The translations under genes were made by a program, and so were the position numbers. The notes under the pieces were generated by a model that was not told the origin of the DNA, searched no databases, and saw only the letters and a program-made list of their open reading frames with translations. This document shows positions 29,891 to 31,801 of a stretch of DNA of 64,000 bases, piece by piece. This stretch comes from Bacillota bacterium (lineage in GTDB: Bacteria > Bacillota > Sulfobacillia > JAIMAT01), in the NCBI GenBank assembly GCA_029961055.1, contig JASBVM010000051.1, positions 1 through 64,000 on the forward strand. Direction: 5' to 3'. Every line of letters starts with the position of its first letter. The stretch's first letter is position 1.

Positions 29891-29966
29891 GACCCCATCG
29901 TCCAGCGGTCTAGGACTCCACTCTTTCAAGGTGGCGACCCGGGTTCGAATCCCGGTGGGGTCACCA
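29891..29966 (+). tRNA. tRNA-Glu (UUC anticodon)
   Basis: A complete cloverleaf: acceptor GACCCCA pairs with TGGGGTC (29956-29962). The anticodon arm is CCACT-CTTTCAA-GGTGG with TTC in the loop, the T arm contains GGGTTCGAATCCC, and CCA is encoded at 29964-29966. It is followed 47 bases later by tRNA-Val on the same strand. Confidence 0.96.
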
Positions 29967-30012
29967 GATTTGGAGGAAGCGGATCCATGACCGCTCCTTC
30001 CCCGGATTTCCA

Positions 30013-30087
30013 GGGCGCGTAGCTCAGCGGTGGAGCGTTCGGTTCACATCCGAAAGGTCGCAGGTTCGAACCCTGCCGCGCCCACCA
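30013..30087 (+). tRNA. tRNA-Val (CAC anticodon)
   Basis: Acceptor GGGCGCG pairs with CGCGCCC (30077-30083). The anticodon arm is TTCGG-TTCACAT-CCGAA with CAC in the loop, the T arm carries GGTTCGAACC, and CCA is encoded at 30085-30087. The 3' end of this tRNA faces a decayed integrase gene, the usual position of an integration site. Confidence 0.96.
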
Positions 30088-30226: not shown

Positions 30227-30620
30227 TCATCTCGCTGGGCCATCCGCCTCGCTTCCGCGGAGCCTGCGGAAGGCGTCCTGAGCCTGGACGAAGGCCGGGC
30301 CTTCGTAGGCGTGGGTGTAGACGCCGAGCGCCGTGGTGACGCGGCTATGCCCGAGGTGGGCGACCCCTTCCAGCGGGGGAACGCCCGCCTCCTGGAGGAG
30401 ACTTCGAGGGAGTGCCTCAGGGCATGGCGCCGGACGCCCTCGACGCCTGCTCGCTCGCAAATCCGGAGCCATGCGTGGCGGATGTTGTCGGGCCGGAGCA
30501 GGCTCCCGGCCCCGCTGGCGAAGACCCTGCCCGCAGTGAATCCAAAATCCCCTTGTCGAAGGTGACGACCCTGCCGGATAGTGGCAAGGGCACCTTGCCA
30601 AGTGCTGAATGCTTCGTCCA
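30227..30620 (-). pseudogene. Phage-type tyrosine recombinase (integrase), C-terminal remnant
   Basis: Two frames of the minus strand together give the C-terminal catalytic part of a tyrosine recombinase. The first is VFASGAGSLLRPDNIRHAWL followed by RRHALRHSL (the Arg of the second catalytic box). After a frame change come SLLQEAGVPPLEGVAHLGHS, RVTTALGVYTHAYEG (LGH and the Tyr region) and the stop at 30227. The N-terminal domains and start are missing. It lies 140 bases beyond tRNA-Val and points toward it, typical of an integrated element that has since eroded. Confidence 0.8.
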
Positions 30621-30850
30621 CGGCGGTCACGCTCAAGGCGGTCAAGGTCGACGGCACAGTTGACACCAGCTTCAAGATGCCGGGTTCAGCGGCGGCTACC
30701 TGACCGTGGTGAATGGCGCGGCTTTCAGCGGCATCACGTCGGGCAAGTACATCGGCTTCACCGGTCTGCAGCCTGGCGATACAGTCGATCTCTACACGGA
30801 CGGGAGCGGCCACTACGCTATCGTGGACCTCTACCGCTCAGCTAGGACTC
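30602..30850 (+). pseudogene. Remnant of a surface-protein-like gene, C-terminal end
   Basis: The plus strand shows VTLKAVKVDGTVDTSFKMPG, and after a frame change near 30680 GYLTVVNGAAFSGITSGKYI and GFTGLQPGDTVDLYTDGSGH, then YAIVDLYRSA. The Thr/Gly/Asp-rich, beta-strand-like composition differs from the Arg/Ala-rich neighbourhood and resembles a repeat domain of a secreted or S-layer protein. No start, signal peptide or recognised domain is present. A perfect hairpin follows at once. It is probably the tail of a gene brought in by, or cut by, the integrated element. Confidence 0.45.
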
Positions 30851-30883: not shown

Positions 30884-31156
30884 GGCGTATTCGGCTATGC
30901 GACGGCTGCCGTCGCGGGTTTCGTGGTGTGAGCGTTTCGCCACTTTGACGCGATGGGGAGTCGCTTCCCGGGTCCGTAACGCACATGTAATTCTGCGGGG
31001 TCGCCTTCGCCGTCGGTCCGGAGAGGCGGTCACCGCCGCCCTCCGCGGGTGGCTTGACGCCGGCCGGGCCAAGCCGCACGCTACCCTCCGGGGTATCTGC
31101 CCGCTTCCTGCCTTCCCTCCGGCGTCTCAGCCCGTGGACCGGAGGGGATCGAAAGC

Positions 31157-31801
31157 GTGAGAACGTGGTCGAGGATCAGGGCGTCCTGGCGGGCCTACCG
31201 CGACTTCTTCGCCGGCTGGTGGAGGTACCGCGACCGCCTGCGCCGGGACGAGCGGTGGATCCAGAACTTCGCCCGCAGGAACGGGCTCCGGGTCAATCCG
31301 CACCGGATGATGCGCACCAACCTGAAGATCTGGATCGAGGAGAACCGCGACCTCTACGGCACGCAGCAGTGCCCCTGCTTCGAGCCGACGGGCGACGCGG
31401 CGATGGACAGGAAGCTGATGTGCCCGTGCAAGTTCGCCCTGGCGGACATCGAGGCGACGGGGACCTGCCATTGCACGCTCTTCGGGCGCGGCGACCTGAC
31501 GGCGGCAGGCTTCGCCGAGGCGGAGGCCCGCCTCATGCGCGAGTACCGCCCCCGTCTCAAGCTCGAGGGGAACCGGTTGGACACGCGCGGCTGGCCGCTC
31601 AACCCGCGGCGCCAGCTGCCGGTCCCCGACCCCGTGCACCAGGTGAAGCAGGCGCTCCACCAGACGACGGGCGACCTGGTCGTGGTCGTCGACCGGCCGT
31701 CCTCCGTCGCCAATCTGCGCAGGCTGGCCGAGAGTCGGGGATTCGGCTTCGACAGCCGCGAGAGCGAGCCGGGCCTCTGGGAGGTCACCCTGCGGCGGTG
31801 A
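31157..31801 (+). CDS. Ferredoxin-thioredoxin-reductase-like iron-sulfur protein with a TusA-like C-terminal region
   Basis: The 214-residue protein has an N-terminal helical region, then the FTR catalytic-chain pattern: QQCPCF, a second CPCKFALADIEATGTCHC about 20 residues later. These Cys would hold a [4Fe-4S] cluster beside a redox-active disulfide. Residues about 165-214 (DLVVVVDRPSSVANLRRLAE to GLWEVTLRR) resemble the TusA/SirA beta-alpha fold but lack the usual Cys. Stand-alone FTR-like proteins occur in many anaerobes and may reduce thioredoxin-type partners; the partner here is unknown. GTG 31157 follows GGAGGGG. It lies alone next to the eroded island. Confidence 0.8.
   Translation: MRTWSRIRASWRAYRDFFAGWWRYRDRLRRDERWIQNFARRNGLRVNPHRMMRTNLKIWIEENRDLYGTQQCPCFEPTGDAAMDRKLMCPCKFALADIEATGTCHCTLFGRGDLTAAGFAEAEARLMREYRPRLKLEGNRLDTRGWPLNPRRQLPVPDPVHQVKQALHQTTGDLVVVVDRPSSVANLRRLAESRGFGFDSRESEPGLWEVTLRR

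Follow-up and report, generated by a model that had tools for sequence, protein, structure and literature searches.

A Ferredoxin–Thioredoxin Reductase-Type Domain Fused to a TusA-Fold Domain Lacking the Sulfur-Carrying Cysteine

Results

The Fusion Gene and Its Surroundings

The window (i.e., the whole 64,000-nucleotide stretch of Bacillota DNA that we analyzed) contains an open reading frame that starts with GTG and encodes a protein of 214 amino acids. This protein combines a domain of the type found in the catalytic (beta) chain of ferredoxin–thioredoxin reductase (FTR) with a C-terminal, cysteine-less domain of the TusA fold, hereafter TusA*. The features of the gene are the following:

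31141..31147, + strand: GGAGGGG, a probable ribosome-binding site, 9 nt ahead of the start codon (from reading the sequence)
31157..31801, + strand: FTR-TusA* fusion gene, stop codon included (ORF list, Pfam, orthologs)
31157..31252, + strand: N-terminal extension (residues 1-32) with many aromatic and Arg residues (ortholog alignment)
31253..31510, + strand: FTR catalytic (beta) domain, residues 33-118 (PF02943; PDB chains 7pwe_A, 4tpu_A, 7bzk_A)
31370..31474, + strand: six Cys, namely C72/C74 (CPC), C89/C91 (CPC) and C104/C106 (CHC) (alignment positions)
31574..31798, + strand: Cys-less TusA-fold domain (TusA*), residues 140-214 (profiles, alignment, predicted fold)
31586..31609, + strand: insert of 8 residues (144-151) in the loop that joins beta1 to alpha1 (alignment with 9 canonical TusA/YedF domains)
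31622..31639, + strand: V156-P-D-P-V-H161, replacing C-P-x-P-V-hydrophobic of TusA (alignment)

The gene lies about 1.1 kb downstream of tRNA-Glu(ttc) and tRNA-Val(cac) (29891-30087). Upstream, on the opposite strand, are genes for a DUF1646 protein and a ribonucleotide reductase; downstream are genes for a DinB-GNAT protein, a bifunctional nuclease domain, Maf, an M20 peptidase and a sigma-70 factor. Some frames around 30227-30813 (- strand) resemble, by eye, a broken tyrosine recombinase, and the two that we scanned gave no Pfam match.

Within the N-terminal extension, F17, Y24 and R25 were invariant across seven aligned orthologs. The model of the full-length protein placed a helix at residues 3-41, at low confidence; with a mean pLDDT of 55.2, this model was too poor for use, and the mutual arrangement of the FTR and TusA* domains cannot be read from it. 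Structural comparison was consequently made with a model of the tail only. A Pfam match to the DNA polymerase beta thumb (residues 32-78) scored 16.5 bits against a cut-off of 25, and we took it as due to chance.

The FTR Half

The assignment of the CPC/CPC/CHC pattern to an FTR-type protein, made in the original prediction, was borne out by the Pfam profile PF02943 (FeThRed_B), which matched residues 33-118 with 49.5 bits (E 4.7e-13, cut-off 22). All six cysteines were kept in 14/14 fusion genes. Related sequences in the PDB were FTR subunit B (7pwe_A), an FTR-type chain deposited under the name rubredoxin (4tpu_A) and chloroplast FTR (7bzk_A).

FTRs are textbook redox regulators, in which electrons pass from ferredoxin to a cluster, from there to a disulfide and finally to the substrate. 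For many non-photosynthetic FTRs, we know of no substrate. By analogy with the plant and cyanobacterial enzymes, we take C74 and C106 to form the redox disulfide, and C72, C89, C91 and C104 to be the ligands of a [4Fe-4S] cluster.

The C-Terminal Half Is Predicted To Be a Complete TusA Domain

The tail was matched by two profiles. PF01206 (TusA) covered residues 153-214 with 28.3 bits (E 1.6e-6) in the protein search and 29.6 bits in a six-frame search, against a cut-off of 28.6. TIGR03527 (YedF) covered residues 152-213 with 29.6 bits (E 5.8e-7), against an equivalog cut-off of 110; no other NCBIfam model matched the tail with an E value of 1 or lower. A DsrE domain gave no match in the fusion protein at that same level in either Pfam or NCBIfam. 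In a profile–profile comparison of the 14 fusion tails with nine TusA/YedF domains, the probability was 98.7.

When the tail was modeled alone (residues 129-214, three sequences), the mean pLDDT rose to 85.9 and the elements came in the order strand-helix-strand-helix-strand-strand. The top structural match was the SirA-like protein 3hz7 (Z 10.1, 69 residues, rmsd 1.9 A), followed by two YeeD entries (Z 9.3 and 9.0), two TusA entries (Z 8.5 and 8.4) and then by an unrelated one (7.6), in a ranking that covers Foldseek's own candidates only. Foldseek itself returned nothing that reached E 0.001, the best being 2yxd_A (6.3e-3) and then 3hz7 (1.3e-2). Judged by profiles and predicted fold, the C-terminus of the fusion is thus a complete TusA domain, TusA/YedF-like in character. 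It models as the TusA fold and not as something unrelated, in line with what had been anticipated, except that its length is not 50 residues but about 75, from a strand at about residue 140 to residue 214.

In TusA, the cysteine of the CPxP motif receives sulfur from IscS, and the conserved cysteine of TusA and YeeD is reported to be important for partner binding (PMC11073785). In the window protein the corresponding residue is Val156 and no cysteine occurs beyond residue 106, so the absence of the sulfur-carrying residue from the TusA-like tail, noted at the outset, was confirmed. The same column held Val in 13 fusions, Ile in one and Cys in none (0/14), whereas CPxP was intact in 13/13 TusA/YedF-type sequences among the loci listed, nine of which served in the tail alignment. 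Elsewhere in the tail, cysteines occurred in 5/14 fusions (G274, G570, G585, G627, G657); the tail was wholly free of them in the window protein and eight others, among them the G573 copy, which is cut short.

The lost motif has a conserved replacement. V/I-P-D-x-x-H was found in 14/14 fusions, with P, D and H invariant, and all 14 had the eight extra residues that separate strand 1 from helix 1.

The Fusion Is Rare and Patchy, and Its Tail Is Maintained

We found the fusion in 14 genomes. Within the class, full-length copies occurred in the window's genome, G002 (80% identical), G112 (79%), G081 (69%) and G005 (66%); outside it, the carriers were G274, G238, G569, G570, G573, G585, G627, G657 and G576, the G573 copy being cut by a contig end and the G576 gene split between two contig ends. 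In the ortholog alignment, identity to the window protein went down to 42%. Any FTR match at all was present in just 12/154 class genomes (five intact fusions, one remnant and six short FTRs that have additional Cys pairs at the N-terminus), and 3/398 sampled phylum genomes gave a match over both domains. The fusion occurred in 4/45 genomes of family f51 (the family of G274), 1/3 of the class of G238 and 4/299 of the class of G576. It is, therefore, rare and patchy.

The original prediction had named absence of the fusion from close relatives as grounds for refutation. One member of the genus, G002, has the fusion; in G001, the other genome of the genus searched, the 13 kb covered yielded nothing of the gene beyond a piece corresponding to roughly residues 85-134, meaning that the gene can be lost. 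Spread on plasmids was rejected, as a search of 72,556 plasmid records gave no match. A PHROGs search gave no match of the fusion to a phage family.

The short FTRs of the class represent a second subtype (L023, L024, L026, L027, L028 and L029, in G068, G076, G084, G047, G040 and G039, respectively), with CxxC-type Cys pairs ahead of a CPC/CPC/C[LR]C core. In at least three of the six genomes (G039, G047 and G068; Pfam-confirmed in G039), the short FTR comes immediately after a glutaredoxin-like gene; no such gene was seen directly adjoining a fusion in the fusion loci inspected.

The FTR domains of the fusions formed one clade with support 100/98 (14 rows), in a tree for which the tree tool warned that long branches meet. 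RUB_L052 and the six short class FTRs, not matched by the motif filter, are absent from the tree, and the clade statement does not extend to them. Such a topology fits a single fusion with subsequent loss or transfer.

Between the window gene and its G002 counterpart, dN was 0.093 and dS 0.427 in the FTR half, and 0.153 and 0.448 in the TusA* half; dN was lower than dS in both halves in 4/4 pairs. This argues that the tail is maintained and, given that 14 genomes carry the fusion, that the pairing is not a product of chance.

These data bear on the idea that the tail is merely structural, serving stability or dimerization as a passenger that an ancestral fusion to a functional TusA or YedF domain left behind. 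Loss of the active-site cysteine in 14/14 copies, the patchy distribution and the G001 remnant would all agree with a passenger. We nevertheless consider it quite unlikely, because two observations speak for a specific role of the tail: the P-D-x-x-H residues, not seen in canonical TusA, are invariant in 14/14 copies, and dN is lower than dS.

Neighboring Genes, DsrE-Like Proteins, and Selenium

Inspection of the fusion loci outside the genus revealed no neighbor shared with the window, in gene calls that are rough (longest open frames) and that, at GC-rich loci (window, L031, L035, L032), sometimes took the wrong frame, on occasion across the fusion gene too, so that a shared neighbor could be missed. 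In G274 (L077 6924-9329), Pfam identified a 2-hydroxyglutaryl-CoA dehydratase D-type (HGD-D) gene, a BadF-type ATPase gene and a DsrE-like gene in a row beside the fusion. HGD-D and BadF-type genes were also found, by similarity, beside the G573 fusion (L081) and were not seen at other fusions; genes that we take to be of arsenic type lie near the G274 and G627 copies and, again, were seen at no others. We accordingly rejected a common neighborhood built on either group, with the proviso of rough gene calls. About 2.3 kb from the G274 fusion there is also a small frame (L077 12323-12583) that by eye looks thioredoxin-like, with a CSKC motif, and whose product is a possible substrate.

The DsrE-like gene deserved attention. 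It encodes 112 residues (PF02635, 33.8-34.4 bits) and adjoins the fusion in G274, G569 and G570, i.e., in three of the four f51 carriers, being convergent with it in two; in the third, both genes lie on one strand, 53 bp apart. Such an arrangement would fit a relay reductase for sulfur or selenium, in which TusA*, as a mimic of YedF's TusA half, would dock a DsrE-like protein and the FTR would reduce the CxxC disulfide or persulfide of that protein; YedF (TusA + DsrE) would have been split and its TusA half moved onto the FTR. The YedF profile as the only NCBIfam match of the tail and the PF02635 proteins found in 12/14 fusion genomes, including that of the window, point the same way. However, in the fourth f51 carrier, G573, the DsrE-like gene lies inside another contig; a profile of the f51-type DsrE found no match in the fusion genomes G000, G002, G005, G081, G112 and G576; PF02635 matched nothing in G627 or G657; and G200 and G272 carry the DsrE-like gene without the fusion. 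With support confined to f51 and two carriers devoid of any PF02635 match, we rejected the DsrE-like protein as a general partner.

Selenium metabolism offered a further indication for such a relay. SelD scored over the cut-off in 13/14 fusion genomes versus 10/16 without an intact fusion, the sole exception among carriers being G112, a genome 78% complete; the difference is not significant (Fisher p 0.086) and the genomes are not independent. Taking these observations together with those on DsrE, we regard the relay as unlikely, if still worth keeping in mind.

In the window's genome, a SelD gene with one in-frame TGA is located at G000:C51:79907-80836, ~48 kb downstream of the fusion and outside the window. 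Of 30 genomes, 23 had a SelD over the cut-off, and in every one of these the best match contained an in-frame TGA. On another contig of this genome (G000:C1), a DsrE-like gene (L001 1845-2270, -) sits beside a canonical TusA gene (about 1501-1710, -), apparently downstream of a frame that by eye is sulfide:quinone-reductase-like, meaning that the window genome also has an ordinary TusA-DsrE pair.

Replacement of NADPH thioredoxin reductase by the fusion was another candidate, for which we found no support. TIGR01292 matched in 24/24 genomes, comprising 11 with the fusion (one cut, one split) and 13 without an intact one (G001 included), and was over the cut-off in 21/24, the others being G001, G026 and the fusion genome G112.

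A C-Terminal Accessory Domain in Other FTRs

Among the phylum-sample loci listed, eight FTRs (L047-L054) carry a rubredoxin-like domain, identified as such by eye and through the name under which 4tpu was deposited. It sits at the C-terminus, where the fusion has TusA*; that position, therefore, tolerates accessory domains. By extension, the tail might serve the electron-donor side, docking a ferredoxin or flavodoxin in the role of the rubredoxin-like domain. Against this stand the absence of a redox cysteine from TusA* and the lack of a ferredoxin match in the nine neighboring window frames scanned with Pfam. Beside the G238 copy there are genes presumably of electron-transfer-flavoprotein type, but these were not seen beside the others. 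Donor docking by the tail hence seems to us distinctly improbable.

Discussion

On balance, we think it probable that this single chain is a disulfide reductase that depends on ferredoxin and is equipped with a noncatalytic TusA* docking or specificity domain. A ferredoxin-type donor would deliver electrons singly to the [4Fe-4S] cluster held by C72, C89, C91 and C104; the cluster would reduce the C74-C106 disulfide, and the resulting FTR dithiol would reduce a disulfide in a partner protein. The TusA* tail would carry no sulfur and would dock through the face where TusA presents its cysteine, a face remade by the enlarged loop with V/I-P-D-x-x-H. A thioredoxin-like, a sulfur-relay or a selenium-related protein would be candidate partners.

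We favor docking because the TusA fold is kept while its cysteine is lost in 14/14 fusions, with P-D-x-x-H conserved at the same face. Moreover, the retention of the fusion in scattered relatives favors a binding module over a sulfur carrier as the role of the tail. On the other hand, outside one family no neighboring gene was seen to be common, and the gene is rare and, as in G001, losable. In addition, if the cysteine is important for partner binding in TusA and YeeD, as reported in PMC11073785, its loss could also mean lost partner binding. The initial suggestion of a redox cluster coupled to a partner-binding module thus fares well as regards the lost cysteine in a preserved fold, and less well as regards the neighbors, which are not visibly conserved outside one family.

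The conserved residues could alternatively constitute a remade active site. During reduction by the FTR dithiol, a persulfide or selenium group on the partner (or a small polysulfide) would be held in place or protonated by the Asp and His of V/I-P-D-x-x-H. If this were true, the protein would not be a thioredoxin reductase; ferredoxin would instead drive the reduction of sulfane sulfur or selenium. We attach little credence to this reading.

Under the docking model, a sulfur-carrier fold stripped of its cysteine and attached to an FTR narrows the search for the substrate, and the tail is usable as bait. The protein would also be a case of a TusA fold retained for a role other than sulfur carriage. 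Both domain types are known. Our literature search, whose coverage left out most subscription journals, brought up no paper that joined ferredoxin–thioredoxin reductase (or FtrB) with TusA, and no description of an FTR paired with a degenerate TusA.

Comparison with Known Systems

In fold and sequence, the tail resembles TusA and SirA-like proteins (PF01206; 3hz7, 3lvj_C) and YeeD/TsuB (8k1r_B), from all of which it differs by lacking the CPxP cysteine and by having the 8-residue insert and V/I-P-D-x-x-H. What it matches in YedF (TIGR03527, TusA + DsrE) is the N-terminal TusA half; unlike YedF, the fusion protein has no DsrE domain, and the CPxP cysteine is missing.

On the FTR side, the double-selenoprotein FtrB (NF041072) has the FTR domain in common with the fusion (44 bits, cut-off 160). 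That model spans 121 positions, leaving the TusA* tail outside the match, and the window gene has Cys codons and no in-frame TGA. With the FTR beta chain (PF02943; 7bzk_A, 7pwe_A) the fusion shares the domain and its CPC/CPC/CHC-type core, to which it adds the N-terminal extension and the C-terminal TusA*. The first CPC is followed by FE in the fusions, by R in the PDB chains matched and by R or Q in the other FTRs of the tree. The FTR-rubredoxin fusions (4tpu_A; L047-L054) are likewise FTRs with a C-terminal accessory domain. Theirs is Cys-rich and rubredoxin-like whereas that of our fusion has the TusA fold, and in the tree the rubredoxin-type FTRs (7/8 included) fall apart from the fusion clade.
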